Program-made: the position numbers and the translations under genes
Shown: positions 11,832-47,543 of the stretch, piece by piece
Numbering within the stretch: the first letter of the stretch is position 1
How the letters are laid out: every line of letters begins with the position of its first letter
The notes under the pieces: model-generated
What the model was told of the DNA's origin: nothing
Database searches by the model: none
The model's input: only the letters and a program-made list of their open reading frames with translations
From: Salinisphaera sp. Q1T1-3
Lineage (GTDB): Bacteria; Pseudomonadota; Gammaproteobacteria; Nevskiales; Salinisphaeraceae
Length of the DNA: 64,000 nt
Reading direction: 5' to 3'
Assembly (NCBI RefSeq): GCF_003602005.1
Contig: NZ_QZWD01000006.1
Span: 1-64,000, forward strand

Positions 11832-11840
11832 GTCGGCAGA

Positions 11841-12025: not shown

Positions 12026-12341
12026 CGAGCCCGCCGCCGGGCGGCAACCGGTAAAACAAGCGCGCTACGGACACGATAGCGGTACCGCGCTTGGGCTGGC
12101 GCCGCGTGCGAATGCACGAGTTTCCGGACGAAGGCAGGCCCGAGAGCCCGGCGTTCATTCGGATTGGGCCCAAGACCGGCGACGGCGCCAGTCGCACGGA
12201 CAAGAGCCCGTCTGTCATGCAGCCGCGTTTCGCCCGCGACCGATCGGCTTGCGCGACAAGTTGGCGCAATATCGGCAGTTGGCGCGGTCAAGTACCGCAA
12301 GGGGCGGCCCGGTGTGGCGGGCCGCTCTGGAGTGCGCCGGT
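12026..12341. other. Gap downstream of a receptor gene
   Basis: No recognisable gene. A strong hairpin, GCGGCCC (about 12305-12311) pairing with GGGCCGC (about 12319-12325), lies 17 bases beyond the receptor stop but has no T-run in either direction. It may stabilise the 3' end of the receptor mRNA. Confidence 0.4.
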
Positions 12342-14624: not shown

Positions 14625-14640
14625 GATATCCATCCCCCTA

Positions 14641-14665
14641 AATGCGAATTATTCTTAGTATCATT
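14641..14665. promoter_or_regulatory. Candidate Fur box of the receptor gene
   Basis: On the minus strand this reads AATGATACTAAGAATAAT followed by TCGCATT, matching the E. coli Fur consensus at about 13 of 19 positions by hand. It lies 17-41 bases upstream of the chosen start. The core ATGCGAATTATT recurs almost exactly in the box before the fhuF gene. Confidence 0.65.
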
Positions 14666-14839
14666 CAGCAGGCATGATCGGTCAACAACGACCGTTGGCG
14701 CGCCTCACGACGCCAACCGATGTGGCTTGGGATGAGGCGATCATTTCCGGGTGGGCCTGTCGCATGCGCCGCGATTCGATGCCGGTATCGGGCATGCAGG
14801 CCTGGGCAGCCGACGCGGTGACGGCTGGGCATAAACCGG

Positions 14840-16489: not shown

Positions 16490-16540
16490 GGGCTTCGGTC
16501 GGGGCTGTGGGCGGCGCGGCCGGGACGGGCGCGCCAAGCG

Positions 16541-31359: not shown

Positions 31360-31635
31360 CTAGGGCCTGTTGATGTTTCGTTCGAGCCCCTTTTCGTCGA
31401 GAGACCGCAGTGTGTCCGGCAAGGCGCGAGTCGCCGTATCGTTGCGTGCCACGGTCAAGGCACGCAACGCGGCGTGGCGCGGCCGACGGGGCCACCCCTA
31501 AGGGCCAGCGGCCAGGTGATGACAATCCAGCGTTATCGCGCGCTCACGTGGCTGGCCACGCCAGGCGCACGATGCCTTGTCTTGTCGCCGCTTGGCCGCT
31601 GGTGCGGCGGTCTATCCCGTGACGACGCGCCCTAG
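31360..31635. repeat. CTAG-flanked MITE-like element, copy A1
   Basis: A 268-bp non-coding segment (31364-31631) bounded by CTAG at 31360-31363 and 31632-31635, as expected for a 4-bp target duplication. The left end is GGGCCTGTTGATGTTTCG. The first ~120 bp match the reverse complement of the element at 52257-52425 at about 85% by eye, for example GTGTGTCCGGCAAGGC. The right CTAG contains the stop codon of the beta-galactosidase gene. It lies between convergent genes. Confidence 0.8.
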
Positions 31636-33770
31636 TCGCGCAGCCGGATTACGGCACAGCCGTAACCGTTGAGCGCCAGCGTATCTTCGACGGTCGCGCC
31701 AGTCAGCAGATCGGTACCGGTCGGTGGGTTGGTGATGCGTGTCGGCGTATGTTCGGTGTTCAGCAGGAACAACAGGCGGCGCCCCTCGGCTTCACGCAGC
31801 GTGGCATCGATGCCGGTCGGAAGGCCCTCGACCAGCGGCGCGATATCGGCTTCCGCGGCGAGCCAGTCGACGAGGGCCTCGGCCAGATCGTCGGTCAGAT
31901 AGGTGCCGAGATAGATCACCTGGCCGCTCCCCACACGTCGACGAGTGATCGCGGCGCGACCGGCCAGAAACCGATTCGACCAGGTGCCGATGACCTCAGC
32001 ATCGACGGCAGGCTCCAGGATTTCGTAGCCGTGGCCGGCGGTCAGTTCCCGACCGGCAAAGGTGAAGTGATAACGACGCCGCCCGGATTCGGTGTCTCGT
32101 GCGGTCTCGACGTAGTGCCCTGCGCCGGGCCGGTCGCGATCCATCATCTCGCCTTGGTCGGGGGCGGCGAGCCGGCCGAACTCTTCGACCGTTACGCCGG
32201 TCAGCGCGCTGAGGGCCGGGCCCGGGGCAGACGTACGGATGACATGGTTGTGGCGATCGCGCGAGCCGGTGCGCGCGCCGATGATGACGGTGCCGCCGTT
32301 TTCGGCAAAGCGCGCCAGCCGAGCGACCCAGTCGTCGTCGAACATCAGCCAGTGCGGCACGTAGAAGATCTTGAGCCGTTCGAGCGTGTCTTCGGGATGG
32401 GCAAAGCCGGTGGCGATGCCGCGCATGAAACAGGCCCGATGCAGCAGCGTGCCGTCGTCCTGCGGCGAGGGAAAGCCGATCGGATAGGTCTCGTGGGCGA
32501 TCTCGTTATCGAAATCGGCCCCGGCGATACCGACATCGATACGCACGGCCGTACCGAGCAGCGCCGGAGCGAGCGCTTGAATCTCCTGGCCGATCTGTTT
32601 GGCTTCGTCGAAACGCCGGCGCGGGATGTCGTCATGATCCAGAATGCCCATCCAGTAGATTTCGGCGCCGAAATGGGCCGGTCGCCAGCGGAAGAACATC
32701 AGACCGTCGGCGCCGTGGGCGAGCGAGGAAAACGCCATGCGCCGCATCTCGCCCGGCTCCGGAACGAGGGTCGAAAACACGACCTGGCTGCCGAAACCGG
32801 ACTGTTGCTCGGGCACGATGAAGTTGCCGGCAAAGCCGCGACACTTGTCGAGGAAGCTGGCCTGTTGATGGGCATGGCCGCCGGTACGCCATTTCTCTTC
32901 GTGGAGCAGCGGGTAGACATCGTAGCCGACGAAGTCGAGATCGTCGGCGAAACCGCCGCGAAAATCGACGTCGGCCAGTCGCCCCATGTTGTGGAACACG
33001 AACCAGTCGGGATTCATGCGCCGCAGAATTTCGACCTGATCGCGCTGGAAGCGCATGGTCGCGAAGGCCAGGAAGCGGTGATAGTCCTGGACATGGCCGG
33101 GGCTGCAATGCACCGGGGCGTTGGGTCGCGGTAAAACGACCTGATCGAAACTGCGATAGGCCGTGGCCCAGAAGTTACCGCCCCAGGCAGCGTTCAAGGC
33201 CTCGATCGTGCCGTACTTGTGCTCGCAGAAGATCTGGAATTCGGCCTCGCTGGCCGCCGAATACGACACCGACATGCTGGTGTTGAGTTCGTTGTCGGTC
33301 TGCCAGCCGATGACGTGCGGATTGTCGCGATAGTGGGTGGCCATCGCTTCGGTGATCTGGCACGAGTAGGCCCGGAACAGCGGATGGGCGGTGTCGGCGT
33401 GCTGGCGCGAGCCGTGATGCATGCGCCGGCCCTGGCCGTCGACGCGCAGGATCTCGGGGTATTTGGCGGTCAGCCAGCGCGGCGGCGTGGCGGTCGGCGT
33501 ACACAGGATGGTCTGGATACCGTGGGCGGCAAGTCCTTCGATGGCGCGGTCGAACAGACCGAAGTCGTAGCGGCCCTCGATCGGTTCGAACAGATGCCAG
33601 GCGAATTCGCCGAGGCGCACGGTATTGAAGCCACATTCGGCCATGCGTGCAGCATCTCGGTCCCAGTAGCTCTCATCGACATGTTCGGGATAGTGCGGTA
33701 CGCCGTAGACAAAAGTGTCGGTGGTGATCGGCCGCCAGGCGGACAGCGGCTTGTTCGCGGTGTTTTTCAT
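31632..33770 (-). CDS. Beta-galactosidase, glycoside hydrolase family 42
   Basis: A 712-residue retaining beta-galactosidase. The N-terminal TIM barrel has VYGVPHYPEH near residues 21-30 and FNTVRLGEFAWHLFEP near 48-63. The acid/base Glu161 is in GWQTDNEL, and the likely nucleophile Glu321 is in IVPEQQSGFG. A trimerisation domain and a small C-terminal beta domain follow. There is no signal peptide, so it is cytoplasmic and acts on imported galactosides. The start overlaps the upstream ATPase gene by 4 bases (ATGA), making it the last gene of a five-gene uptake operon. The TAG stop lies inside the CTAG that borders element A1. Confidence 0.93.
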   Translation of the reverse strand: MKNTANKPLSAWRPITTDTFVYGVPHYPEHVDESYWDRDAARMAECGFNTVRLGEFAWHLFEPIEGRYDFGLFDRAIEGLAAHGIQTILCTPTATPPRWLTAKYPEILRVDGQGRRMHHGSRQHADTAHPLFRAYSCQITEAMATHYRDNPHVIGWQTDNELNTSMSVSYSAASEAEFQIFCEHKYGTIEALNAAWGGNFWATAYRSFDQVVLPRPNAPVHCSPGHVQDYHRFLAFATMRFQRDQVEILRRMNPDWFVFHNMGRLADVDFRGGFADDLDFVGYDVYPLLHEEKWRTGGHAHQQASFLDKCRGFAGNFIVPEQQSGFGSQVVFSTLVPEPGEMRRMAFSSLAHGADGLMFFRWRPAHFGAEIYWMGILDHDDIPRRRFDEAKQIGQEIQALAPALLGTAVRIDVGIAGADFDNEIAHETYPIGFPSPQDDGTLLHRACFMRGIATGFAHPEDTLERLKIFYVPHWLMFDDDWVARLARFAENGGTVIIGARTGSRDRHNHVIRTSAPGPALSALTGVTVEEFGRLAAPDQGEMMDRDRPGAGHYVETARDTESGRRRYHFTFAGRELTAGHGYEILEPAVDAEVIGTWSNRFLAGRAAITRRRVGSGQVIYLGTYLTDDLAEALVDWLAAEADIAPLVEGLPTGIDATLREAEGRRLLFLLNTEHTPTRITNPPTGTDLLTGATVEDTLALNGYGCAVIRLRD

Positions 33771-34927
33771 GCGTCGACCATTTCGGGTTCAGAGCGGATA
33801 TCGGCCGTTCGGGCAGACGTGAGCGTCTTGCCCTCGGCATCGAACAGATACACATCGGCGGCATCGAAACCGATGGACACCGCGTCATCGCGCCGCAAGG
33901 TGATGCGGCCGTCGGTCTGGGCCGTCAGATGTCCGAGGCCGTTCTCCGATTCGATCGCGCGGACCGGGGCGGCATCGAGATAGGCGATGGCTTCGCGTCC
34001 GAGCTGCTCGATCAGGCCGATTCGGGCGGATAGCTGATGGTCGCCTTGGCCGTCGAGACGGATCGACTCGGGCCGCAGGCCGATGACAACCTCATCGCCC
34101 ACGGCAACACGAGCCTCGTTGTGTATGTCAAGACGGATACGTGCCAGGCCTTCGCTGTCCACGACGGCGGACCCATCGGCGACCTCGACCGCGCGCGTCG
34201 AGATGAAATTCATCCGCGGCGAGCCGAGAAAGCCGGCGACGAAACGGTTGCGCGGATTGGTATAGAGTTCGACCGGGGTGCCGATCTGCTCGACGACCCC
34301 GTGGTTCATCAACACGATCCGGGTGGCCATGGTCATGGCCTCGACCTGATCGTGCGTGACATAGACCATGGTGGCCTCGAGCCGTCGATAGAGCAGGCCG
34401 ATTTCCACGCGCATCTGTGTACGCAGCGCGGCATCGAGATTCGACAGCGGCTCGTCGAACAGGAATACCGACGGCGACCGGGTGATGGCCCGGCCGATCG
34501 CTACCCGCTGACGCTGACCGCCGGACAGCTGGCGCGGGCGCATCGCCAGATAATCGTTGATCTGCAGGATCTCGGCAGCCCGTTTCACCGCTTTCTGGAT
34601 TTCGGCCTTGGGCCGGCCCGCCATGCGCAGGCCGAAACCCATGTTCTCGGCGACCGTCATATGCGGATAGAGCGCATAGGACTGAAAGACCATGGCGATA
34701 TCGCGATCGCCCGGTTCTTCGCGGGTTACGTCTCGCCCACCGATGAGAATCTGCCCCGAATCGATCGACTCCAGCCCGGCGATGCTCTTGAGCAGGGTGG
34801 ATTTGCCGCAGCCCGACGGGCCAACCACGACGATGAACTCCTTATCCTTGGCGGTCAGGTTGATATCGGCCAGTACAGTCGTGTCGCCGTAGCGCTTGGT
34901 GATGCCATTGAGTTCGAGATCGTTCAT
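33767..34927 (-). CDS. Sugar ABC transporter ATP-binding protein (MalK/UgpC family)
   Basis: A 386-residue ATPase for the adjacent permeases. Walker A is GPSGCGKST (about 36-44), the signature LSGGQRQRVAIGRA (about 134-147), Walker B VFLFDEPLSNLDAAL, and the H-loop VTHDQVEAM. A C-terminal TOBE/MalK regulatory domain follows (GLRPESIRLDG). It lies 46 bases after the second permease and overlaps the GH42 gene by 4 bases. Substrate is inferred from the beta-galactosidase: a beta-galactoside or galacto-oligosaccharide. Confidence 0.93.
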   Translation of the reverse strand: MNDLELNGITKRYGDTTVLADINLTAKDKEFIVVVGPSGCGKSTLLKSIAGLESIDSGQILIGGRDVTREEPGDRDIAMVFQSYALYPHMTVAENMGFGLRMAGRPKAEIQKAVKRAAEILQINDYLAMRPRQLSGGQRQRVAIGRAITRSPSVFLFDEPLSNLDAALRTQMRVEIGLLYRRLEATMVYVTHDQVEAMTMATRIVLMNHGVVEQIGTPVELYTNPRNRFVAGFLGSPRMNFISTRAVEVADGSAVVDSEGLARIRLDIHNEARVAVGDEVVIGLRPESIRLDGQGDHQLSARIGLIEQLGREAIAYLDAAPVRAIESENGLGHLTAQTDGRITLRRDDAVSIGFDAADVYLFDAEGKTLTSARTADIRSEPEMVDA

Positions 34928-34973
34928 GAGTTGACTCGTCCGTCGTTTGTCCGTGGTACCGGCGGTGCCGTGT

Positions 34974-35825
34974 TCAGCCCTTGACGGCGCCCATCGTCAG
35001 CCCGCGCACGAAATGGCGTTGCATGAAGAAGAACAGCATCACCGGCGGGATGGCGATCACGATCGTTGCCGCCGAAATGAGGTTCCAGTTCGCGACGTAC
35101 TGGCCCTTGAGATTGGCCAGCCCCGCAGTGACCGGTTTCACCGCATCGCTCGGCGAAAGCACCACGGCCCAGAAGTAGTCGTTCCAGATGAAGGTGAAGG
35201 CCAGGATCGACAGGGCCGCCAGCGCTGGTCGCACGAGCGGCACGACGACATGGATGAGCGTCTGCAGCGGCGACGCGCCTTCGGCGCGCGCGGCCTCGAA
35301 CAGCTCGCCGGGCAGCGCCGCGATGAAATTACGCATGAACAGCGTGGCGAAGCCGGTCTGGAAGGCCGTATGGAAGATGATCAACGCCAGATACGTGTTG
35401 TAGATGCCGAGGTCGAGCGTGAGATTGCGCACCGGGATCATCATGATCTGGAAAGGCAGGAAATTGCCGCCGATGAAGATCGCGAACAGCAGTGTGTTGC
35501 CGCGAAAGCGATAGCGCGAGAGCACGAAGCCCGTCAGCGTCGACAGACACAGCACTCCGATCACCGATGGGATGGTGATGATCAGACTGTTGAGGAAGTA
35601 GCGTCCCATCGGCGTTTGTGTGAACACGCCGGTGTAGTTGGCGATCAGGTCGAAACCGGACGGCCAGCCCCAATAGTCGCCGGCCGCGATATCGGCCGCC
35701 GGGCGGATAGACGTGAGGATGATTGCAAGCAATGGCAGCAGCCACAGAAACAACACGAGCGTGACACTGCCGAGGTATAGGCTTTTCCTGGCCGGCTCAC
35801 CGGCCTTAATCTGTCGTGGATACAT
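34974..35825 (-). CDS. Sugar ABC transporter permease, MalG-like
   Basis: A 283-residue inner-membrane permease with six hydrophobic segments. The binding-protein-dependent transport loop is visible as FEAARAEGASPLQTLIHVVVPLVRPAL (EAA motif, about residues 182-208). The start at 35825 shares one base with the stop of the upstream permease (TGATG), so the two are translationally coupled. It is the second of the two membrane subunits of the galactoside importer. Confidence 0.92.
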   Translation of the reverse strand: MYPRQIKAGEPARKSLYLGSVTLVLFLWLLPLLAIILTSIRPAADIAAGDYWGWPSGFDLIANYTGVFTQTPMGRYFLNSLIITIPSVIGVLCLSTLTGFVLSRYRFRGNTLLFAIFIGGNFLPFQIMMIPVRNLTLDLGIYNTYLALIIFHTAFQTGFATLFMRNFIAALPGELFEAARAEGASPLQTLIHVVVPLVRPALAALSILAFTFIWNDYFWAVVLSPSDAVKPVTAGLANLKGQYVANWNLISAATIVIAIPPVMLFFFMQRHFVRGLTMGAVKG

Positions 35826-36709
35826 CACGCGCCCTCGCGTTCCATGCGCAGCATGCGGTGGAGATACCAGGCGATGAACACCGCCATGACCACGAACAGC
35901 ACGGCCGCGATGGCCGCGCCGTAGCCGAAGCGATAAGCCTCGATGGACTGTTCGTACATCTGATAGGCCAGCACGTTCGACGAGCCGAACGGCCCGCCGG
36001 AAGTCATCACGGAAATCATGTCGAACGAGCGCAGCGCGCCGATTACGGTGACCGCGATCGCGATGAAATTCACCTGGCGCAGTTGGGGCAGCACCACATG
36101 GCGCAGCATGTGCCAGCCTTTCGCGCCGTCGACACGGGCCGCGGCGATCTGGCTCTCGTCCAGATTGTTCAGCCCGGCCATGAACAGAATCATGCAGAAC
36201 GAGACCTGCGGCCAGAGGGCGGCGATCACCACGGCGACCGTCACCCATTCCGGATTAGACAACAGCGCCGGCGCGGTCGCGCCTATTGCCTTGAAGATAA
36301 GCGCCAGCAGGCCGTTGGTCGGGTCATAGAACCAGGCGAAGACCACGCCCACAGCCACCTGCGACATCACCAGCGGCATGAAGAACAGCGACTTCACCAG
36401 CCGCATGCCGCGGATTTGCTGGTTCACCAGTAGCGCGATCGCCAGCCCCAGCGGCGGGGCTGCCATGAACATCACCAGCCAGATGATGTTGTTCTTGAGT
36501 GAGGTATAGAACTGTGGGTCGTGGAGCAGTTCGACGTAGTTGGACAAACCGGCCCAGGTCATGGGGCCGAAACCGTCCCAGCGGAAGAAGCTGATCGCCA
36601 GGCTCTGGGCCGAGGACGCGACGATCACCCCCCAGAACAGAATCACGCCCGGCGCGAGGAAAATGACCGGCCAGAGCCAGCATCGATGACGTCGCCACAG
36701 GGTCTTCAC
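35825..36709 (-). CDS. Sugar ABC transporter permease, MalF-like
   Basis: A 294-residue inner-membrane permease. The GTG at 36709 is chosen because a perfect GGAGG lies 6 bases ahead of it and the first membrane segment (LWPVIFLAPGVILFWGVI) follows; an upstream in-frame start would add 49 residues with no membrane features and overlap the binding-protein gene. The EAA loop reads IAAARVDGAKGWHMLRHVVLPQLRQV (about 190-215). It pairs with the MalG-like subunit. Confidence 0.92.
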   Translation of the reverse strand: MKTLWRRHRCWLWPVIFLAPGVILFWGVIVASSAQSLAISFFRWDGFGPMTWAGLSNYVELLHDPQFYTSLKNNIIWLVMFMAAPPLGLAIALLVNQQIRGMRLVKSLFFMPLVMSQVAVGVVFAWFYDPTNGLLALIFKAIGATAPALLSNPEWVTVAVVIAALWPQVSFCMILFMAGLNNLDESQIAAARVDGAKGWHMLRHVVLPQLRQVNFIAIAVTVIGALRSFDMISVMTSGGPFGSSNVLAYQMYEQSIEAYRFGYGAAIAAVLFVVMAVFIAWYLHRMLRMEREGA

Positions 36710-36761
36710 GATCGGCCTCCCGGGTGGTTGTCGACGGTAGCCGGACACATCGGTACCCTCC

Positions 36762-38021
36762 TCATGCCGGCGCGTAGACGCGCTTGCGCACGCGATCGAG
36801 CTCGGCTCGGATCGCCTTCTCGCGCTCTGGATACACCCTGAACTCCTGGAAACCATTCAGCCCGGCCCGGGCCATCGCCGGCTCGGTGTCCCGGTCGTAG
36901 TACTGCGACGTGCCCTGGCTGGCCCGCAATAGTTCGGTGGCCGTGCGCATGAGCGGATTGTCTCCCGGCGACATGTCGCTGCGCGGCGGCACGCTGCCGA
37001 TGGGCGCGATGAACTTGGCGAGCACCTCCGGTTGATAGAAATACCCCAGGAACTCCTGTGCCAGTGCCTGATGTCTGGCGCGTGCCGGGATATGGATCGA
37101 GTTCGAGGCGAAATCCTCGAATGGGCCGATCGAGGCGTTGTACATGGGAAACCGGATCAGTCGAAGCTGGTCGACCGCATCGGCCGGCATCGCCCCCTGG
37201 ATGAAATTGGATAGATCCATCATCGCCGCCTTGCCCTGGGCGAGAAACGCGGCCGCCTGCTGCCAGGCATAGGAGGTGCCGTGCTTGAGGAAAAAGCCGT
37301 CGTGGATCATCTCCGCCCAGTGTGCGAAGACCGGGTCGAGCGATGTATCGGAATAGGCCATCTCACCCCGCATGAGGGCCATGTGCTTTTCCAGGCCGTT
37401 AATACGCAGATTCAGGTGATCGAACCAGCCCGCGGCCGGCCATTGTTCCTTGGTTCCCATGGAGACCGGGATCAATCCCGCCTGTCGAGCTGCTGCGCAG
37501 GTGCGATGGAAGTCCTCGAACGTTGCAGGCGGTGACAGGTCGTGACGCGCGAAGACATCGGCGCGGTAATAAAGCCCCCAGAACAACCCACCCAGCGGCA
37601 AGCCGTACTGTCGGCCATTGACCGAGACGGTCTTGAGCAGGGGCCCGAGGGGTTTAGCGAAATTCTGGCGGGCGACCAGCTCGGAGATGTCGGCAAACAG
37701 ACCCAGCTGCACGAACTGACGCATCCGGGCGCCGGAGAACCAGAAGCAGATATCCGGCGGGTCGGCGACCAGATAGTTGCGAATCGCGGTCTTGTTGGCC
37801 TCGTGGGCGATGTTGTTCAACGTTACCCGGACGCCGACGCGACGGCCGAAATCGGCGACGATCTCCCGAAACACGGCATACTGGCCGGTATTCAGGTCGC
37901 TGGTGATGACCAGCTCGCGTTGTGTGGCGATCGCCGGCGCGCCGAACCCGGACAGGGCAAGCCCACAACCGAGGCCCTGAATCACCCGGCGACGCGTCAT
38001 GCCACGATGACATTCCGTCAT
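36762..38021 (-). CDS. Sugar ABC transporter substrate-binding protein with Tat-type signal
   Basis: A 419-residue periplasmic binding protein, family-1 type. The N-terminus has MTRRRVIQGLGCGLALSGFG, a twin-arginine-like signal that is uncommon for sugar-binding proteins and suggests folding before export. The mature part opens RELVITSDLNTGQYAVFREIV and contains DPPDICFWFSGARMRQFV. ATG 38021 follows GGAGGAG; the signal peptide proper may begin at the next Met seven codons on. First gene of the galactoside operon; its ribosome site abuts the palindrome at 38037-38070, so the divergent ROK regulator probably represses it. Confidence 0.9.
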   Translation of the reverse strand: MTECHRGMTRRRVIQGLGCGLALSGFGAPAIATQRELVITSDLNTGQYAVFREIVADFGRRVGVRVTLNNIAHEANKTAIRNYLVADPPDICFWFSGARMRQFVQLGLFADISELVARQNFAKPLGPLLKTVSVNGRQYGLPLGGLFWGLYYRADVFARHDLSPPATFEDFHRTCAAARQAGLIPVSMGTKEQWPAAGWFDHLNLRINGLEKHMALMRGEMAYSDTSLDPVFAHWAEMIHDGFFLKHGTSYAWQQAAAFLAQGKAAMMDLSNFIQGAMPADAVDQLRLIRFPMYNASIGPFEDFASNSIHIPARARHQALAQEFLGYFYQPEVLAKFIAPIGSVPPRSDMSPGDNPLMRTATELLRASQGTSQYYDRDTEPAMARAGLNGFQEFRVYPEREKAIRAELDRVRKRVYAPA

Positions 38022-38036
38022 GACTGCGTTCTCCTC

Positions 38037-38070
38037 CATGTCCGATCTGATGTTTCTTATGTCGGACATG
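38037..38070. promoter_or_regulatory. Palindromic operator between the binding-protein gene and the ROK regulator
   Basis: CATGTCCGA (38037-38045) and TCGGACATG (38062-38070) are exact inverted copies around a 16-base centre. The left arm touches the ribosome site of the binding-protein gene and the right arm ends 17 bases before the regulator start. This is the expected place for a ROK repressor operator controlling both directions. Confidence 0.65.
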
Positions 38071-38086
38071 AGTAAGCTAGCGAGCT

Positions 38087-39286
38087 TTGAATGGCGGCGT
38101 CAAAATTATTTCAACAGATGAATTAATTGTGGAAATTTCCGAAATCACCGGCCGGAAAAGCGATAAGGAAGAGAAGAAACGTTTCATTGTCAATTGCTTG
38201 CGTAAGAGCGGTCAGCTCAGCCGTCGCGAAATCGCGACCCGCTCCGGCCTGAGCCCGGCGACGGTTTCGGCACTGGTTACCGAGCTGCTTGACGAGGCGT
38301 TGGTCGTCGAGGAAGACGCCGTGAAAAGCCCGGGCGGCCGACGTCCGACGCCGATTCGCATCAATTACGAAGATGGCCTGGCGATCGGCATCAAACTCAA
38401 CTTTAGTCGCATCGAAGGCGTGCTCACCGATATGTCCACCGGAATTGCCGATCGGTGTGAGTGCCAACTCATTGATCGTGAAGTCGAAACCGTTCTCGAC
38501 GCCGTCGAATGGGTGGTCCGGGCGCTGATGCGTACATCGGCAGCCGCCGCGCGGCCAGTCCACGGTATCGGTGTCGCGATTCCCGGTGCGATCGACACGA
38601 TCAACGGAATCTGCCGAGTGAGTCATCGGCTCGGCTGGCGAGACGTGGCCTTCGCCGAGCGACTTCGCGCGCGACTCGACGTGCCCGTCCACATCGATGA
38701 CGACAGCCATGCGTTCGCGCTGGCGCAGTCGCTGTTTGGCCTGGGATTGACACGGCGCTCGTTCGCGACCCTGGCGATCGGCGACGGCATCAGTGTCGGC
38801 ATGGTGCTCGCGGGGAAGGTGCATCGCGGCGAGACCGGGGCCGCCGGCAAGCTCGGCCACGTGCGCCACGCCGTCGATGGGCGGCGCTGCGAATGCGGAC
38901 GTGTCGGTTGTCTGCAGGCGATGCATGCGGTCGGCGGGATGCTGGCGCAGTGGCGCGGCACTGCCGATCGCCGCACTTTCGCCTCCGACTTCGCTGGCCT
39001 GGTCTCGGCGGCCCAGGCCGGCCATGCCAGCGCGCTCGCGATCGCCCGTTCAGCCGGTGAAGCGATCGGGCAACATCTCGCCACCTTCGTCAACGTTGCC
39101 GATCTGCGGGCTATCGTGCTCGGCGGCGAAGCGGTCGCGCTGGGCGATGCGTTGATCGAGCCGCTCGGCGACCAGCTCGGCGCCCTGGTGTTCGGTGCGC
39201 CCGTCGTGCTGACGATCGACGAACACAGCGATTTTTGGAGCCGCGGCGCTGCCGCGTTGGTCACACAGATACAGTTTGATTTCTAG
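38087..39286 (+). CDS. ROK family transcriptional regulator (NagC/XylR type)
   Basis: A 399-residue sugar-responsive repressor. The N-terminal winged helix-turn-helix is LSRREIATRSGLSPATVSALVTELL (about 44-68). The C-terminal ROK kinase-like domain has the DGISVGMVLAGKVHRGETGAAGKLGH segment and the zinc motif CECGRVGCLQ. The start is uncertain: the only upstream option is TTG at 38087 without a clear ribosome site, and GTG at 38129 is an alternative. It is divergent from the galactoside operon with a shared palindrome. Its stop TAG is part of a CTAG that opens a repeat element. Confidence 0.88.
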   Translation: MNGGVKIISTDELIVEISEITGRKSDKEEKKRFIVNCLRKSGQLSRREIATRSGLSPATVSALVTELLDEALVVEEDAVKSPGGRRPTPIRINYEDGLAIGIKLNFSRIEGVLTDMSTGIADRCECQLIDREVETVLDAVEWVVRALMRTSAAAARPVHGIGVAIPGAIDTINGICRVSHRLGWRDVAFAERLRARLDVPVHIDDDSHAFALAQSLFGLGLTRRSFATLAIGDGISVGMVLAGKVHRGETGAAGKLGHVRHAVDGRRCECGRVGCLQAMHAVGGMLAQWRGTADRRTFASDFAGLVSAAQAGHASALAIARSAGEAIGQHLATFVNVADLRAIVLGGEAVALGDALIEPLGDQLGALVFGAPVVLTIDEHSDFWSRGAAALVTQIQFDF

Positions 39287-39439: not shown

Positions 39440-41095
39440 TCAGTTCGCAAAATCACTATCTTCGCGCTCGGTGCATAGGTTGCCCGTCAGCCAGGTACAG
39501 GTGTCTGTGATCGCTTGACGTGCCAGTCTCGAAATCGCCATGGCTTCAAGAAAACTGTGCATGGCGCCGGGGTAGATATGGCAGGTTGTGTTGACGCCGG
39601 CCGATTTCAATCGCTGGCGCATCTCAAGATTCTCCGGTGCCAGCAGATCACGCTCGGCGACGATGAACAGGGTGGGCGGCAGATCGGCGACATCGGCATG
39701 GATCGGCGCCAGCAGCGGATCGGTGTTGTCCGTCGCATCACCTCGATAAAGAGCTGAGAATTCATCCATTTCGGCGGCGGTAAGCATGTCCTTTTCGCGG
39801 CCGACGGCGTCACGTGTTTCCGCGTCCACGGGGGCGCCGAAGGCGCCGTAGTTGAGTACGAGAGCTGCGATGTGGCGCTTGCCGCCCCGGTCACGCTCGT
39901 GCAGGGCGGCTGCCAACGATAGATTGCCGCCGGCTGAATCGCCGCCGAGGGCGATGCGCGTGGCATCCACGCCAAGGCTTTCGGCGTGCGCGGCGATCCA
40001 TTCGACGGCTGCACACACCTGCTCGAGTGCGGCGGGATACGGGTGCTCGGGGGCCAGCGCATAGTCCACACCGATCACGGTGATGCCGGCACCGGCGGCG
40101 TACTCGCGCATCAGCCGGTCATGCGTGTCCAGGCTGAACAAGGCCCAGCCGCCGCCGTGGAGATAGACCAGCGCCGGTTTGATCGTGCCCGGCTCCGGGT
40201 CGTAAATGCGGAGGCGAATATCGCCCCAGGGATGCACGATTGTGCGCTCGAGACGCTGGGCGATGGTTGGCCCACCGAGCGTCCAGCGTCGCCGTACCTG
40301 CTCGGCGACGATGCGCCGGCCTGGCCAGTCGAGTTCGCGCCCGGCCGACAGACGATGGCTATCGGCCTTGATTGCCTGCACGAAATAATCGAGCGCCGGC
40401 TCCAGTTCCGAATCGACGACTTCATGGGCCGCGGCGCTCGAGGCGCCCGGCCCGGTCGATTCCGGTTGTCGGCCGGTATGGGCACCGAAACGCAGGATCC
40501 AGTCTCGTACGGCTTTTCGATAGGGCCGGTCCAGGGCAGCAAGAATATCGGCGAATTCTGTATCGCTTTCGTCCTGGCTGACCTTGAATGTGCTACGAAT
40601 ATCTTCGATCGGCGCTCGAAAAGCGACGACACCCCGGGCCAGGCCTTCGTAGCGCCCGCCCATTTCCTCGATGGCCCAGCGGTTCGGACGATCACTTTCC
40701 ATATCGTCGATCAGATCCTTGAGCCGTTTGCCGATGGTCTCGGCATCATGCTCGAGCTCGACCCGAACGGTGAACATGGCGCAGGTGAAATTCCAGGTCG
40801 GGGCCTGCGTACGATCACGAAACCAGGAGGGGGAGATATAGCTCTGGGGGCCCATCACCAGAATATGTGCCTGTGGGGCGTCCGCCAGTTGCGTGACCTG
40901 TGGGTTGGCACGCGCGAAATGGCCGACTACGGCGATAGGTCGCCCGGCGTTGTCGCACTCGATCTGTATTGGGAGCGGCGTGGCGTACGTCGCATCCGCT
41001 GCGCTCACGATCCAGGCCAACGGCGTCTGGGCGACGAGCTGGCGTATATCTGCATCCGTATGGGCACGGAAGATATTCTTTCTACCGATAGTCAT
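39440..41095 (-). CDS. Fusion protein: PaiB-like FMN-binding domain plus hormone-sensitive-lipase-type esterase
   Basis: A single 551-residue frame joins two families normally found as separate proteins. Residues 1-190 match PaiB (an FMN-binding split-barrel 'negative transcriptional regulator' of about 207 residues), with SYISPSWF (85-92) and APTWNFTCAMF (98-108). Residues about 230-545 form an alpha/beta esterase of the HSL/Aes type: HGGGW (313-317), GDSAGG with Ser387, Asp483 in ERDLL and His513 in AMHSF, all catalytic residues present. An Ala/Ser/Gly-rich linker (205-225) separates them. ATG 41095 follows AAGG at good spacing; GTG 41113 is an alternative. Function of the combination is unknown. 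Confidence 0.88.
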   Translation of the reverse strand: MTIGRKNIFRAHTDADIRQLVAQTPLAWIVSAADATYATPLPIQIECDNAGRPIAVVGHFARANPQVTQLADAPQAHILVMGPQSYISPSWFRDRTQAPTWNFTCAMFTVRVELEHDAETIGKRLKDLIDDMESDRPNRWAIEEMGGRYEGLARGVVAFRAPIEDIRSTFKVSQDESDTEFADILAALDRPYRKAVRDWILRFGAHTGRQPESTGPGASSAAAHEVVDSELEPALDYFVQAIKADSHRLSAGRELDWPGRRIVAEQVRRRWTLGGPTIAQRLERTIVHPWGDIRLRIYDPEPGTIKPALVYLHGGGWALFSLDTHDRLMREYAAGAGITVIGVDYALAPEHPYPAALEQVCAAVEWIAAHAESLGVDATRIALGGDSAGGNLSLAAALHERDRGGKRHIAALVLNYGAFGAPVDAETRDAVGREKDMLTAAEMDEFSALYRGDATDNTDPLLAPIHADVADLPPTLFIVAERDLLAPENLEMRQRLKSAGVNTTCHIYPGAMHSFLEAMAISRLARQAITDTCTWLTGNLCTEREDSDFAN

Positions 41096-41303
41096 GACAG
41101 CCTTGAAATACACGCCGGGCGGCGTCGCCGGCCCGGCACGAAAGAGGACAAACAGGGGGTGTGATGAAACGACGGCGCCCGTGCGCGTTCGCTGCTGCGT
41201 CTGTCTGTGAAAGCTTTAGATCCGGTGCCACGATGTCCGAATTGGCATCGGTTGGGCGTTGGACAAGCGGCAAACCGTTGTCCACGCGCCGCCTGTGGCC
41301 GGA

Positions 41304-43304
41304 TCAATGACCTGTCGCATCGTCGTCGTCGAGATAACGATTCAACCAGTCCAGAACACGTTGCTGGATATCGGCGCGATATGACGCGCCGACGCTGTGC
41401 CCGAACCAGTGCGGGGCCTTGGGATAGCCGATGAGTGCGCTGGGCTGGTCGGTATCGTGGGCGAGGGCACGATGCAACATCCGGCCCTGAAAGAAGGGCA
41501 CGCGGGTATCGGCTTCGCCGTGCAGGATCAGCACTGGCATGTGCACATCATTGACGAAGTTGATCGGCGAACGGGCCGCGTACTCGGCGTGATGGCGGCT
41601 CGGATCGCCGAAGTACGGCCCCATGAAGGACAGGCCCACGTCGGAGGAAAGCGCCATGGATTGCAGATCCGAAATGCCGGCGCCGACGATCGCGGCCTTG
41701 AACGGGTCGTCCTGCGTGGCCGCCCACGCAGACATGAAGCCGCCATAGCTCCAGCCACCGATCGCGACACGGTCGATATCGATGACGCCGCGCTCGGCGA
41801 GCGCATGAACGCCGGTCAGGATGTCCTGAAAATCCGCGCCGCCCCAGTCGTGCCGGTTGGCCAGTGCAAAAGCGGGACTGCGCCCGGCCGAGCCCCGCGG
41901 GTTGGGCAGGAGCACGGCATAGCCGTGCGAGGCGAGCACCTGGCCCCAGTTCACCCAGGAACCCTGCCAACCGTCGTACCACGACTCATACGGCCCGCCG
42001 TGTATCTCGACCAGTGTCTTGTAGGGCCCCGAGGTGCCGTCGGCGGGCGTCACGAGCATCCCGTGGATCGTGTATTGCCCGTCGCGGCTCTGCCAGTGCA
42101 CGCGTCGTACGTTGGCCGTGCGCCAGTTCGCGACTTCGGAATTGACGTGTGTCAGCCGATGCGGGCTGTCCTCCCGGGGTTTGAACCAGACCTGCGCCGG
42201 CTCGACGCGCGTCGAGGCGACATAGGCCAGCCCGCCGTTGTCGGTCCGGCTGAAATCGAAAGGATCTCCCTTGAAGGCCAGGCCTTCGCGTACGCGCCCG
42301 GTGCTGGCATCAACCTGGGCAAACTGCGGCGTCATGTTCGAAAACGCGAGCGCGGTCAATGTCTGGCCGTCCTGGTTCCAGCGCACGCTACGGAGATTGC
42401 CCGGCCAGTTCGCGCCGAGCACGGTGTTATTGTTCTTGTCGAGATCATGGACGGCAACGACCGCGGTAATCCCGTCGGCCTGGAAATAGCCATAGACCAC
42501 TTGGCGCCCGTCCGGGGAGAATGACGGATGCACGGCGGTGGCATGATGCGGTAGCGGGGTCCATGGTCCGCTATCGAGCGCAAGCACGGCGACATGCGAT
42601 GTGTACCAGTACGCCTGCGGTGTGTTGGTGTCGGCGTATCGGACCAGCAGGCGCTTGCCTTCCGGCCCCCAGGCGACATCGAAGACAAAGCGACCGTCGT
42701 CGCCGGCCACGCGATGTGCTTTGCCGTCATGGGCATCAACCATATAGAGCACATCGTGGCCGTCCGGCGCATCCGCCGGAGCGGGCTTGTCGGTCGCGTC
42801 GGGATTGTCCGCGGCGAGATGCACGATGGCCGCGATCCGGTTGCCGTCGGGTGACCAGCGAAAATCGGTGACACTGCCGGCGAGAGCGGTCAGCCGTTGC
42901 GGCGGCGCCGATAACGGCGCTGCGATCCAGATTTGTTGATCACCCGATTTCGCCGATGTCTTGTCGTCATCCGAACGGCTGCCGGCGCGCAGAAAGGCCA
43001 GTCGGTCGCTGCCTGGCGACCAGCGAGGGTTGTTGTCGCCGTCACGTGAATGTGCGAGCGGCCGCGGCTGTGGGTTGGGTCCTGTGACGGTCTGCCAGAG
43101 ACGGGCCGGGCCGGGTTTGGCGCTACCGGCCACAGGTCGGCGTAGCGTATAGACGACGGTCTGCCCATCGGGGGCGATCCGCGGTGTGTCGACATGGTCG
43201 AGGGTGGCAATGTCCTCCGGCGTGATCGGATGTTTTTCGGCCGCCGAGGCCAGGAGCGGGTGAACGCTCCATAGAAGAAGAAACAGCGATAGACAAAGAC
43301 GCAT
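41304..43304 (-). CDS. S9 family prolyl oligopeptidase-like peptidase (secreted)
   Basis: A 666-residue serine peptidase. A signal peptide (MRLCLSLFLLLWSVHPLLASA) places it in the periplasm. An N-terminal beta-propeller with repeated WSPDG/FSPDG-type turns (about 60-400) precedes the alpha/beta-hydrolase domain with GGWSYGGFMSAW (Ser519), typical of the dipeptidyl/acylaminoacyl peptidase branch. Asp and His of the triad are likely in LHGEADTRVPF and KAPHWFG. ATG 43304 follows AGGAG; longer frames upstream look spurious. It probably degrades short peptides imported across the outer membrane. Confidence 0.92.
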   Translation of the reverse strand: MRLCLSLFLLLWSVHPLLASAAEKHPITPEDIATLDHVDTPRIAPDGQTVVYTLRRPVAGSAKPGPARLWQTVTGPNPQPRPLAHSRDGDNNPRWSPGSDRLAFLRAGSRSDDDKTSAKSGDQQIWIAAPLSAPPQRLTALAGSVTDFRWSPDGNRIAAIVHLAADNPDATDKPAPADAPDGHDVLYMVDAHDGKAHRVAGDDGRFVFDVAWGPEGKRLLVRYADTNTPQAYWYTSHVAVLALDSGPWTPLPHHATAVHPSFSPDGRQVVYGYFQADGITAVVAVHDLDKNNNTVLGANWPGNLRSVRWNQDGQTLTALAFSNMTPQFAQVDASTGRVREGLAFKGDPFDFSRTDNGGLAYVASTRVEPAQVWFKPREDSPHRLTHVNSEVANWRTANVRRVHWQSRDGQYTIHGMLVTPADGTSGPYKTLVEIHGGPYESWYDGWQGSWVNWGQVLASHGYAVLLPNPRGSAGRSPAFALANRHDWGGADFQDILTGVHALAERGVIDIDRVAIGGWSYGGFMSAWAATQDDPFKAAIVGAGISDLQSMALSSDVGLSFMGPYFGDPSRHHAEYAARSPINFVNDVHMPVLILHGEADTRVPFFQGRMLHRALAHDTDQPSALIGYPKAPHWFGHSVGASYRADIQQRVLDWLNRYLDDDDATGH

Positions 43305-43577
43305 GAGCCGGCATCTCCTGCAGACCGTCTGACCCGCGCATCGAGTCGCGAGCCACGGTCTGAATGATCGTTTGATCCGGATCCCGGACCGCCGCATCTG
43401 CAGCGATCCGGTCACCGGTCGTCCACGGGGCACCAAGACAGCCGAATACGGGCGCGGCCTACAGCGCCCGCAAGGCAAAGACGGACCCGCTCCGGCCTCG
43501 TCCCGGGTGGATTGTCGAAAGCGCCTCATATCGACGGGGCTGGGCGTGGCAGGGCACCACATCGCAAGGCGCGATTT
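43305..43577. other. Promoter region of the S9 peptidase and undefined sequence
   Basis: Upstream region of the minus-strand peptidase gene. Only the AGGAG ribosome site at its left edge is recognisable. No gene is supported. The far end of element A3 probably lies somewhere in this stretch, but I could not identify a matching CTAG border. Confidence 0.35.
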
Positions 43578-43739
43578 GCGGCCCAACCCAAAGGGACAAG
43601 TGCCCCAAAATCAAAAACACGATGGCAATCCAGCGTTCCAGCCCGCTGGCGCAGAATGACTGCGCGGCGCGTGTGACGCCTCGTCTTACCGCAAGACAGC
43701 ACTTGACGCGGACTCGAACGAATCATCAACAGGCCCTAG
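43578..43739. repeat. CTAG-bordered MITE-like element, copy A3
   Basis: Read on the minus strand it begins CTAG-GGCCTGTTGATGATTCG, nearly the same end as copies A1 and A2. It shares GATGGCAATCCAGCGTT with A1 (GATGACAATCCAGCGTT at 31515) and CCCTTTGGGTTGGGCCGC with A2. The CTAG at 43736-43739 includes the stop codon of the TonB receptor gene. The distal end is unresolved. Confidence 0.65.
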
Positions 43740-46000
43740 AAATCCACCGTAGCGGACAGTTTGAATGTGCGCGGGTCGCCCTGGGTCAGGTAGCCGCTCT
43801 GGGCCGATGCCCAGTAGTCGGAATTGGCCACATTCGTCACGTTCGCCCGCCAGGTGATGTGACGCTCGTTATCGCCCCAGGGCATCTTGTAGCGCAGCCC
43901 GAGATCGATTCGCGTCCAGGGGGCGAGCTTGAGCGTATTCGCTGCGTCTGCATATTGCGTGCCGCTGCGAATCACACGGGCGTTGGCCGACCAGTTCGGC
44001 AGGCTCGGCAATTGCCAGTCGCCCTGGAAGACAAACCGGTAATCGGCCACCCCGACTGCATTATTGCCGTCGTTGGCGCCGTTCGCGGTATCCGAAAGCT
44101 CGGGGTCGATCCAGCTCGCGCTGGCCATCAGCCGCAGTCGCTTCGTGGGTTTGCCGAAAACGCTGACCTCGAGGCCACGGTTACGCTGTTTGCCGTAGTA
44201 ACCGTAGATGTTGGTGACCGGGTCGGTGTACGCGCTCGGCTGCTCGATCTCGTAGAGAGCCAGACTGCCGCCGATCGTTCCGAAATCGACCTTGCCGCCA
44301 ACTTCGTTCTGCTTGGATTCGGCGATACCGACCACCTGGCCGAAATTGGCGGACTGCGTCGGCGCAGAGTCGCCGGCCTGGAGTGCTTCGATATGGTTGG
44401 CGTACAGCGACAGCCAGTCCAGCGGTTTGACCACCACGCCATAGGCCGGGGAGACCGCGTGATTGACGATGGCCGGCTCGTTGAACACGCCCTCCGCGCT
44501 GTAGTTCTCGATCCGCAGCGATTGATAGCGCGCCCCCACCGTGAGCAGCAGTTTGTCGTTGAACAGGCCGGCGGTATCGGAAATCGCCCAGCCGTCGGCG
44601 CGGTGCCGATTGCGAATCGGCGGGTTGTCGAAATCGCCGCCGGAAACGACGGTCGGCGGGCTCGGCAGCGCCGCGGGATCGTAGATGTTGGTCGACTGCA
44701 GAGCCGCTAGGCTCGACTGCCGATAGGCCGTGTTCATTCGACGGTAATAGCCCGAGTAGCCGACATTGATCTTGTGGCTGATGGGGCCTGTATCGAAGTT
44801 GCCCCGAAACCCGGCTTGACCGGTGAACAGATTCGCTTCGTAGGGCACGCTGATCCGATAAGCCCCGGCATTGCCCTGATCGTCCTGCAACAACAAGCCG
44901 GCGTAGTCGCTATCCTCGCGTGAGTGATTGGCGCCGATCGCGGCATAGCCGGTCCAGTGATCGGTGAAATCGAACGAGCCGCGCAGCAGGCCGAATTCCG
45001 TCTTGAGCTCGGTCTGAGCATAGGACGGCGCGTAGTTGGTATCGGCATCGGGCGGCTCGGGAACTTCTGTTGCGTTGCTGGTATAGATGACCGAGCGGAA
45101 ATGCTTGAGGTGCTGGCGCTGGTAGCCGAAATAGGCCGACGCCCGGGCCCGCTCGCCGCGATAGTCCAGGCCGAGCCCGACCGATGTGTCGGCCGCGTTT
45201 TCATCGTTGAGTGCGGTATCGCCTTTTTCGTGCTGGGCATCCAGACGGACCCCGAAACGCTGGTTCTTGCCAAAGCGACGGCCCACGTCGACTTCCTGCT
45301 CGAACTGCGAATCCGAGGCATAGCCGAGTTTCAGACGGCTGATCGGATCGTCGGTCGCCCATTTGGGCTCGAGATTGACCGCGCCGCCAACGCCCGAACC
45401 GCCTGGCGATACGCCGTTGGCGAACGCGTTCGCGCCCTTGAAGAGCTCGACCCGGTTCACGAAATTGGTCTGCACGATCTGGCGTGGCAGCACGCCATAG
45501 AGGCCGCCGAAGGAAATATCCTGGCCGTAGAGCGGGAAACCGCGAATCTGAAATATTTCGCCAGCGGTACCCGAGCCGTAGGCCTTCTGGACCCCAGCAT
45601 CGTTTTCCAGTACCGAGCCGACTGTATCGTCTTGCTGGTTATCGATGATCTGCGATGTATAGCTGATGACGCTGAACGGTGTATTGAAGGCATCCTGCTC
45701 GCCCAGGACACCGATGCGCCCGCCTGAGGCGACCTGGCCGCCGGCATACGCGGGGGGCGGGTTGGTACCCCCGGTCAGTTGTCCGGTCACGAGCATATCG
45801 CCGAGCGTGGTCGTGCCGGCGGCCGGCGTCGTGCTTGGCGCGGCCGGTGCGACGTCTCCCGCCGGGGCAGGTGCTGCGATGTCACGACCCTGATCGTCGG
45901 GCTCGGCGCCATAGGCATTGAGACTGCCGACCAGCGTGATGGACAGCAGACCCATCGATCGATGACAGGCAATGACCCTTCGAAGATATGTAGCAAACAT
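43736..46000 (-). CDS. TonB-dependent siderophore receptor (paralogue of the one at 1825)
   Basis: Outer-membrane receptor of 754 residues, including a signal peptide (about 1-32, ending NAYGA). The plug opens NPPPAYAGGQVASGGRIG, followed by NTPFSVISYTSQIIDNQQ, and QIRGFPLYGQDISFGGLYG near 150-168. These match the receptor at 1825-4113 closely, so the two are paralogues with probably different ligands. The barrel ends KLSATVDF with the usual terminal Phe. ATG 46000 follows GGGGG. I see no convincing Fur box upstream. Its TAG stop lies in the CTAG of element A3. Confidence 0.93.
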   Translation of the reverse strand: MFATYLRRVIACHRSMGLLSITLVGSLNAYGAEPDDQGRDIAAPAPAGDVAPAAPSTTPAAGTTTLGDMLVTGQLTGGTNPPPAYAGGQVASGGRIGVLGEQDAFNTPFSVISYTSQIIDNQQDDTVGSVLENDAGVQKAYGSGTAGEIFQIRGFPLYGQDISFGGLYGVLPRQIVQTNFVNRVELFKGANAFANGVSPGGSGVGGAVNLEPKWATDDPISRLKLGYASDSQFEQEVDVGRRFGKNQRFGVRLDAQHEKGDTALNDENAADTSVGLGLDYRGERARASAYFGYQRQHLKHFRSVIYTSNATEVPEPPDADTNYAPSYAQTELKTEFGLLRGSFDFTDHWTGYAAIGANHSREDSDYAGLLLQDDQGNAGAYRISVPYEANLFTGQAGFRGNFDTGPISHKINVGYSGYYRRMNTAYRQSSLAALQSTNIYDPAALPSPPTVVSGGDFDNPPIRNRHRADGWAISDTAGLFNDKLLLTVGARYQSLRIENYSAEGVFNEPAIVNHAVSPAYGVVVKPLDWLSLYANHIEALQAGDSAPTQSANFGQVVGIAESKQNEVGGKVDFGTIGGSLALYEIEQPSAYTDPVTNIYGYYGKQRNRGLEVSVFGKPTKRLRLMASASWIDPELSDTANGANDGNNAVGVADYRFVFQGDWQLPSLPNWSANARVIRSGTQYADAANTLKLAPWTRIDLGLRYKMPWGDNERHITWRANVTNVANSDYWASAQSGYLTQGDPRTFKLSATVDF

Positions 46001-46235: not shown

Positions 46236-47543
46236 ATGACCTATGACGAAATGCAAATCCAGGGTCGGACAGCGGACGAGATCGTCGCCAGTGTGCGTTC
46301 GCTCGTCGCCGCCGGGCGGCTTCGCAGCGGCGATCCGCTGCCGGCGGTCCGACAGCTGGCCCTGACGCTTGGGATCAATCGCAATACGGCGGCGGCGGCT
46401 TATCGCCGTCTGAATGAAGTCGGCCTGGCCCGTAGTGCCGGCCGCCGGGGAACCCGTATTTCGCCGCCGCCGTCGCTCGGTGAGCAGGAAGGGGCGAGTG
46501 TCGACACCGCGCTCGTGGACTTGGCCGACGGCAATCCCGATCGGGATTGCCTGCCGGATATCAATCGGGTGATCCACGCCTGCGACTTCAAACACTCGCT
46601 CTACGGTGAGAGCACGTTCAATTCGGCGCTGCGGCGCTACGCCGCGGCCTGGTTTGACGAGGATTGCCCAGGCGATGCCGATATTCTGGTCACCCACGGT
46701 TGTGTCGATGCGATCGAGCGTCTGGCGCAGGCGCGACTGGTGCCGGGCGATCGTGTCGCCGTGGAGGATCCCTGTTTCCTGGGTACCATCAATGCCTTGC
46801 GCCTATCGGCGATGCACGCGGTCGGCGTTGCCGTCGATGCTGAAGGCATACAGCCCGAGGCACTTCGCCAGACGCTGCGCGGCGGGGCACGGGCGGTGTT
46901 GCTGACCGCGCGTGCCCAGAATCCGACCGGATTCTCGATGAGCCGCGAGCGGGCGGCGGCAATCGCGGCGGTACTAGGCGAGCATCCGGACGTAATGGTG
47001 ATCGTCGACGATCACTTTGCGCTGCTGGCGAACACGGATTATCACGCCCCTATTCCGTCCACGACGGGCTCGTGGGCGGTTATTCGTTCACTGGCCAAGC
47101 CGGTCGGCCCGGATATTCGCGTGGCCTTGCTGGCCTGCGATCGGACGACCGGCGAGCGCCTGCGCACTCGCCTGGCGCCGGGGATGACATGGGTGAGCCA
47201 TTTTCTGCAGACGCTGGCGATTTCCTGTCTCGAAGACCCGCAAGTCAAGACCCTGCTGGCCGAGTCGAAGATCCAGTACGCCACACGACGAGAAGCGATG
47301 CAGGCCGCGCTGCAACACGTCGGTTTTGCATCGCCGTTGACCACCGATGGCCTCAATGTCTGGATCCCGCTGTCTTGCGACCCTAGCGCGGTGGTCAACG
47401 CGATGGCCCGTCGCGGCTGGCTCGTGCGGGCCAGTACCGCATTCGAGGTTTCGCAGCAGAGCCGGGCGATCCGGGTCACGACATCGCGTTTGTCGCCCCC
47501 CGAAGCCGAGCGTTTTGCCGCCGCGCTCGCTGAGGCGATTTAA
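46236..47543 (+). CDS. MocR/GntR family regulator with aminotransferase-like domain (PtsJ-like)
   Basis: A 435-residue PLP-dependent transcription factor. The N-terminal GntR winged helix has GDPLPAVRQLALTLGINRNTAAAAYRRL (about 33-60). The C-terminal fold-type I aminotransferase domain shows DGNPDRDCLPD, NPTGFSMS and the Schiff-base lysine Lys288 in SLAKPVGPD. Sequence order resembles PtsJ, which controls pyridoxal kinase genes in enterobacteria, but no vitamin B6 gene is adjacent. Such proteins bind DNA and sense PLP or an amino-compound. A palindrome overlaps its own ribosome site. Confidence 0.9.
   Translation: MTYDEMQIQGRTADEIVASVRSLVAAGRLRSGDPLPAVRQLALTLGINRNTAAAAYRRLNEVGLARSAGRRGTRISPPPSLGEQEGASVDTALVDLADGNPDRDCLPDINRVIHACDFKHSLYGESTFNSALRRYAAAWFDEDCPGDADILVTHGCVDAIERLAQARLVPGDRVAVEDPCFLGTINALRLSAMHAVGVAVDAEGIQPEALRQTLRGGARAVLLTARAQNPTGFSMSRERAAAIAAVLGEHPDVMVIVDDHFALLANTDYHAPIPSTTGSWAVIRSLAKPVGPDIRVALLACDRTTGERLRTRLAPGMTWVSHFLQTLAISCLEDPQVKTLLAESKIQYATRREAMQAALQHVGFASPLTTDGLNVWIPLSCDPSAVVNAMARRGWLVRASTAFEVSQQSRAIRVTTSRLSPPEAERFAAALAEAI

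Follow-up and report, generated by a model that had tools for sequence, protein, structure and literature searches.

The window analysed here is a stretch of 64,000 nucleotides of Salinisphaera sp. Q1T1-3 (contig NZ_QZWD01000006.1). On its minus strand, genes for a TonB siderophore receptor, an S9 peptidase and a fused protein follow one another, and a MocR-type regulator gene is divergent from the receptor gene (Table 1). The fused gene is a single stop-free frame that can be started at an ATG or at a GTG; the ATG lies six codons inside the GTG, the residue numbers used below count from the GTG, and subtracting 6 gives the numbering of the first-pass annotation of this DNA. A common transcript with the S9 peptidase gene is only putative, because a 208-base gap precedes the ATG of the fused gene. 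The peptidase probably starts further inside its frame, at a signal peptide recognised by eye, and its identity as a lasso-peptide isopeptidase was rejected (112 bits, where the cut-off is 400). The siderophore receptor scored only 42 bits with the FhuA model, far below the cut-off; it shares PPAYAGGQVA(S/T)GGRIG with another TonB siderophore receptor at 1789-4113, and the two look paralogous. On the other side, a sugar ABC transporter, a GH42-like beta-galactosidase and a ROK repressor (31632-39286) abut the fused gene and look like an unrelated sugar locus.

A hydroxamate-iron uptake (Fhu) cluster at 6466-17293 lies 22-35 kb from the fused gene and comprises FhuC, FhuD, FhuB, a receptor, an exporter and FhuF. 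FhuB scored over its curated cut-off, and FhuC and FhuD are best matches yet below theirs. Given this cluster, the organism probably imports hydroxamate siderophores. Two overlapping minus-strand frames at 10149-11287 are presumably fragments of a multicopper oxidase gene that seems to be broken.

Table 1. Features of the window, with residues numbered from the GTG start of the fused gene.
Feature	Position	Strand	Basis or remark
FhuA/FoxA-like receptor	12342-14633		best match FhuA, below cut-off
Cyclic-peptide-exporter-type ABC protein	14840-16537		over curated cut-off
Siderophore-iron reductase FhuF	16541-17293		over curated cut-off
Fused gene	39440..41095 (39440-41113 from GTG)	-	551 aa from ATG; 557 aa from GTG at 41113
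N half, residues 1-212, PaiB/FMN_bind_2 split-barrel, NohD-like	40478..41113	-	Pfam; model pLDDT 93.3; Foldseek
Linker, residues 213-236	40406..40477	-	pLDDT <50 at 216-228
HSL-type alpha/beta hydrolase, residues 237-545; HGGG 319-322, GDSAG 391-395	39479..40405	-	Pfam, fold
His65, predicted heme ligand (His61 of SbPZS, His65 of KtzT)	40919..40921	-	43/43 aligned N halves; excerpts of PMC13274692, PMC11705231
Thr106 of Thr-Lys dyad (NohD T98)	40796..40798	-	Thr 37/43, Ser 6/43
Lys177 of Thr-Lys dyad (NohD K167)	40583..40585	-	Lys 41/43, Arg 2/43
Catalytic Ser393	39935..39937	-	alignment
Catalytic Asp489	39647..39649	-	alignment
Catalytic His519, in HSFLEA (subfamily mark)	39557..39559	-	alignment; S520 50/51, E523 50/51
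S9 peptidase, Dpp5/lasso-isopeptidase-like	41304..43586	-	upstream of fused gene; below both curated cut-offs
TonB-dependent siderophore receptor	43736..46000	-	TIGR01783, 349 bits, cut-off 223.5
MocR-type regulator, divergent from receptor	46236..47543	+	MocR cluster in 5/39 paired loci

The first-pass annotation had read this frame as a PaiB-like domain and an HSL-type esterase joined by a flexible linker, and each of these parts was borne out. PF04299 (FMN_bind_2) matches residues 14-170 (E=5.3e-32, 111.2 bits against a cut-off of 22.4) and PF07859 (Abhydrolase_3) matches residues 315-522 (E=1.1e-62). The HSL assignment of the C half further agrees with the HGGG and GDSAG motifs, the triad and the whole fold, which spans whole HSL esterases at a best Z of 42-44. 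The residues proposed earlier as catalytic (Ser387, Asp483 and His513, here S393, D489 and H519) are each identical in all 51 aligned hydrolases, the window's included. Modelled at full length from 76 aligned sequences (mean pLDDT 86, pTM 0.65), the protein has two domains with a low-confidence stretch between them, in agreement with a flexible linker at about 213-236; the N half was also modelled alone, from 39 aligned sequences, and this model spans NohD chains over almost their full length.

Adjacent unfused pairs of the two genes with a 4-bp overlap are common, so an assembly or sequencing artefact that merged two such genes had to be weighed, as had been foreseen in the first-pass annotation. 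The GC3 is coding-like throughout (0.67 in the N half, 0.71 in the linker and 0.74 in the hydrolase), and within the window the ATGA stop/start overlap of the unfused relatives is confined to the two remaining frames, so that one indel could not recreate the two-gene form. Since more than one indel would be required and the fusion recurs in three other species, an artefact is scarcely credible. The fusion of a PaiB/FMN_bind_2 domain with a complete HSL-type hydrolase in one frame is thus confirmed as real.

The three other species are Pseudoxanthomonas broegbernensis, Luteimonas marina and Steroidobacter agaridevorans, giving four fused genomes with the window's. PF04299 is present in 58 of 369 class genomes, a comparison set not matched for taxonomy; among the places listed in them, only the window's sits in a frame longer than 350 aa, and it is the sole PF04299 match of its own genome. 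The refuting case named in the first-pass annotation, many known proteins of this architecture, thus did not arise among these places; the architecture is not unique, given the three further fused species and the many unfused adjacent pairs. Neither the fusion nor the pair was found in the open-licence literature.

No relative was confirmed when genome contigs were searched with the entire fused protein; from a scan with the hydrolase half, the best 80 of 553 confirmed loci were retained. For 61 relatives, the N half was covered by no match outside the window's genome among the matches listed, nor was it found, among the matches listed, in 13 other genomes of the genus. Same-genus PF04299 matches in two genomes (G002 and G013) were dropped as relatives, being weak and partial. 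The S9 neighbour was likewise not found in these 13 genomes at E<=1e-30, which implies that the locus was gained in the window's genome or lost elsewhere; the GC content around it (0.61-0.65 per kb, against 0.65 for the window) does not decide between gain and loss.

Within the best 80 of 553 loci, 39 of the 47 that belong to close hydrolase relatives contain a PaiB-like gene, and none of the 33 with remoter HSL hydrolases does (Fisher's test, p=3e-15, with kinship among loci uncorrected). The boundary between close (L071-L117) and remoter (L118-L150) loci was set post hoc at the last locus with a partner, and one of the four seed sequences of the PaiB profile was the window's. The 39 paired loci comprise 29 unfused same-strand neighbours, 2 fused genes and 8 cases in which the partner lies further off or on the opposite strand. 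The PaiB-like gene comes first in 8 of the 29 adjacent pairs and the hydrolase gene in 21, and a 4-bp overlap is frequent. PF04299 was found elsewhere (13 places) in all eight genomes whose hydrolase locus has no PaiB-like gene, and in five of these genomes a copy reaches 192-228 bits, like the paired ones (custom profile, 10 of 13 places). The non-local copy of Steroidobacter agaridevorans forms a further fusion, with a second hydrolase (L160).

Single loci illustrate both gene orders. In genome G029 a separate PaiB-like gene begins 3 bp after the end of a hydrolase gene (45% identity over 277 residues), the order opposite to that of the fusion. In genome G690 the two genes overlap by 4 bp in the fusion order, and an S9 peptidase and a pyrroline-5-carboxylate (P5C) reductase then follow. 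On plasmid pTM2 of Tistrella mobilis the pair is publicly annotated as separate genes, followed by an amidase. Further pairs were noticed in two Variovorax genomes (L166, L168 and L172), two of them in one genome. The fusion is a merger of this conserved two-gene module.

How often the merger took place depends on the half examined. In the hydrolase tree, the fused forms L071, L073 and L160 constitute one clade (100/99), and the window groups with unfused PaiB-first pairs of Lysobacteraceae (99/95). On the hydrolase trees the fused label needs two changes, either two fusions or a fusion and a split; the N-half tree would also allow a single origin. The trees with L160 drew on selected rows, 28 for the hydrolase and 24 for the N half; another hydrolase tree, without L160, combined 51 rows of the subfamily with 10 from the 33 remoter loci. 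The linkers of the fused forms are unlike in letters.

The nearest solved relative of the N half is NohD, an N-hydroxylamine dehydratase (phmmer 3.5e-22, against 1.8e-18 for PaiB; Foldseek 2.7e-17, with LnzB at 4.2e-17). Going by their titles, the NohD structures (PDB 9OQS-9OR1) show the protein with heme, its double mutant T98A/K167A together with heme and N-hydroxylated ornithine, and mutants carrying A59N, R144Y and V96A. No paper on the NohD enzyme was found in the open-licence literature. The best NohD match in 12 genomes is in Actinomadura (L162, 45% identical), where no HSL hydrolase was found in the surrounding DNA examined. By structure comparison, NohD (Z 22.2) and piperazate synthases (PZS; Z 21.4-21.8) are tied, the lead being below 1, and the listed flavin- and F420-type split barrels are at about 14 and under, against 19-22 for the heme families.

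In Bacillus, PaiB is paired with the acetyltransferase PaiA. It had been suggested from the first look at this frame that a flavin or regulatory PaiB domain might control or assist an acetyl-esterase, a reading that agrees with the Pfam name FMN_bind_2 and with the term transcriptional regulator applied to PaiB in excerpts of PMC13274692. The same excerpts state that PaiB binds heme and that most piperazate synthases carry an FMN-binding annotation. Because the top structural relatives are heme-binding (NohD, the piperazate synthases and PaiB 9VYC itself) and flavin- and F420-type barrels score far lower, a flavin or regulatory role is improbable, and the suggestion is probably wrong. The N half is likely to bind heme, as judged from these relatives and from the residues of the predicted site, and "FMN" is probably the wrong cofactor name for it.

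Residues were compared in 43 N halves (39 paired loci, three loci from G genomes and the window), with the row for L114 being its genome's second, non-adjacent PaiB-like copy. Besides the predicted heme ligand and the Thr-Lys dyad (Table 1), N70 (37/43), Q180 (43/43) and D181 (41/43) are conserved. PZS residues were mapped to the window at a constant offset of 4 (H65, N70, T106 and K177), counted by hand, and H57 as the NohD equivalent of the His was counted from the alignment. In piperazate synthase, according to excerpts of PMC13274692, His61 is the heme ligand, and Asn66, Thr102 and Lys173 are important and conserved in PaiB. Bacillus PaiB has the same His/Asn/Thr/Lys set without N-N bond-forming activity (same excerpts), so that this set is no proof of dehydratase function, and the His and the dyad, being common to PaiB and PZS, are not specific to NohD.

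Where NohD and PZS diverge, the window has the NohD-like A67 (Asn in 0/43) and R154 (Arg in 34/43), the PZS-like A104 (Ala in 29/43), and E182 (Glu in 36/43, Lys in 4/43) where PZS has a substrate-binding Lys; owing to this Glu, the substrate may differ from that of PZS. R154 corresponds to NohD R144 in alignments to the unmutated chain, and two alignments to the R144Y mutant shift the gap by one residue. An N half that forms an N-N bond as a piperazate synthase, beside a biosynthetic esterase, would agree with the nearly equal structural scores and with A104. However, Asn63, Tyr150 and Lys178 of PZS are Ala67, Arg154 and Glu182 in the window, the neighbours look catabolic and no NRPS gene was noticed by eye; the identity was rejected at these three positions and is very improbable. 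A NohD-like dehydration is the activity that we consider fairly likely for the N half, by analogy with its nearest solved relative. In excerpts of PMC11705231, PipS dehydrates several hydroxylamines to imines, which hydrolyse to aldehydes, and the Thr-Lys dyad is named.

For the hydrolase half, no NCBIfam HSL equivalog was above its own cut-off, and the chloramphenicol hydrolase model reached 155.6 bits against a cut-off of 500. EstDL136, an HSL relative, cuts the amide bond of chloramphenicol. Its structure title calls it chloramphenicol-metabolizing, and HSL relatives of this kind may cut amides.

The genes around the pairs were counted by mechanical ORF calling and clustering, with loci cut by contig ends scored as lacking a gene and clusters named from one or few representatives. 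TonB receptors (three clusters) occur in 27/39 paired loci against 0/33 remoter ones, a contrast inflated by the different taxonomy of the 33 control loci. The corresponding counts are 29/39 against 2/33 for a peptidase, amidohydrolase or amidase, 21/39 against 0/33 for an AraC regulator, 13/39 against 0/33 for a PepSY protein and 5/39 against 0/33 for P5C reductase; a MocR cluster is found in 5/39 paired loci. These contrasts are indicative only. Amino-acid permeases and, by eye, Lrp regulators also lie near pairs. In Burkholderiales and Tistrella loci ABC transporter genes were seen by eye, and no TonB cluster was noticed there.

The S9 cluster that includes the window's peptidase directly adjoins the pair in L066, L076 and L080. 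One receptor cluster comprises 17 receptors, of which two fragments were omitted and three of the 15 scanned belong to loci with no PaiB-like gene nearby; all 15 match TIGR01783, and 13 match FhuA and 13 FoxA at E<=1e-80. In the other large cluster (18 of 20 scanned) only TIGR01783 matched, 17 of 18 at E<=1e-30, with a best match of 4.6e-53 (in L066, 162 bits, below the cut-off). P5C reductase (TIGR00112) is over the cut-off in L066, L072 and L079, reaches 190.7 against 196.75 in L090, and was assigned in L080 and L082 by clustering alone. In L079 and L082 it lies within an amidohydrolase run, between the PaiB-like gene and the hydrolase.

In G029, one strand (L057:3289-8830) carries P5C dehydrogenase, DgcN, DgcA, the hydrolase and the PaiB-like gene. 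The scores are 736 bits for glutamate-semialdehyde dehydrogenase (cut-off 613.6), 444 for DgcN (480) and 413 for DgcA (400). The DgcN/DgcA pathway converts D-glutamate to L-glutamate. The gene series suggests a D-amino-acid branch, and a route from D-hydroxyornithine through D-glutamate to L-glutamate would fit it.

Our tentative reading, slightly short of an even chance, is that the fused protein is a bifunctional catabolic enzyme in which hydroxamate hydrolysis is followed by heme-dependent dehydration, in the catabolism of siderophore-like hydroxamates. The HSL serine hydrolase would cleave an N-acyl-N-hydroxy amide to a free N-hydroxylamine, e.g., N5-hydroxyornithine. The heme half (His65, Thr106/Lys177) would then dehydrate the hydroxylamine to an imine, yielding an aldehyde and ammonia, as suggested by NohD and PipS. 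With hydroxyornithine, the product would be glutamate semialdehyde/P5C, which could pass to P5C reductase or dehydrogenase in those loci that have one of them next to the pair. A fused or closely paired enzyme would serve to hand over the reactive hydroxylamine, and the gene order in the window (TonB receptor, S9 peptidase, fused enzyme) would fit the import and breakdown of a peptidic compound, probably a hydroxamate. The earlier idea that the esterase removes an acyl group and shares its work with the other half survives as a guess, to which heme-dependent dehydration of an N-hydroxylamine is now joined.

That the hydrolase cleaves hydroxamates, and that these originate from siderophores, is plausible, at a chance we would put just under one half, although the cleavage by this HSL subfamily is a guess. 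It is supported by the FhuA/FoxA-like receptors (13/15 of one cluster) and by PepSY in 13/39 loci; it is weakened because the window's own receptor, although of a siderophore type, scores poorly with FhuA, the other receptor cluster matches only TIGR01783 and P5C reductase is found in only 5/39 loci. The same enzyme pair might act on another substrate, in peptide, amide or dipeptide catabolism or on non-siderophore N-hydroxy compounds, or carry out other heme chemistry. The amidohydrolases, S9 prolyl-oligopeptidase types, amidase, amino-acid permeases, MocR and (by eye) Lrp near the pairs would agree with this, as would the ABC transporter genes adjoining the Tistrella pair and E182, unlike PZS. 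But those FhuA- and FoxA-like receptors and PepSY proteins speak against it, as does the crystallisation of NohD with N-hydroxylated ornithine, and we regard another substrate as a minority prospect of about one chance in three.

In public annotation, the family is called "FMN-binding negative transcriptional regulator", as for the unfused PaiB-like gene of Tistrella. From the pairing it can be argued that this PaiB-like group, at least, comprises heme enzymes acting after a hydrolase. With rather low confidence, the fusion and its widespread two-gene form could be a missing intracellular step of hydroxamate catabolism in Proteobacteria, with DgcN/DgcA serving the D form in one lineage. Niveispirillum irakense, which we take to be the present name of Azospirillum irakense, carries an unfused pair in strain DSM 11586 (locus L096). 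Titles cited in PMC11800396 record that Azospirillum irakense degrades desferrioxamine siderophores. If the hydroxamate reading is true, genes would be assigned to that old observation.

Several known systems resemble parts of the fused protein. NohD shares with the N half the fold (195 residues, 2.0 A), the heme-ligand His, the Thr-Lys dyad, and Ala and Arg at two of the three swapped positions, but it is a single-domain protein of 206 aa without an esterase domain, is 28-29% identical, and has V96 where the window has A104. PaiB (2OL5, 9VYC; PF04299) has the same fold, heme-ligand His and Thr/Lys, but stands alone, is described as a regulator and is less similar to the N half than NohD is. 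The piperazate synthases KtzT, PipS, LnzB and SbPZS share fold and heme site; in contrast, they are biosynthetic, and differ at the three SbPZS positions given above. The HSL-type esterases (Pyrobaculum calidifontis 3ZWQ/2YH2, Est8 4YPV and Aes 4KRX) have the fold, HGGG, GDSAG and triad of the C half, whereas the window's subfamily is marked by HSFLEA after the catalytic His and by a DTHDR motif. Finally, both genes of the DgcN-DgcA D-glutamate pathway, not found in the window, lie beside the unfused pair in G029.
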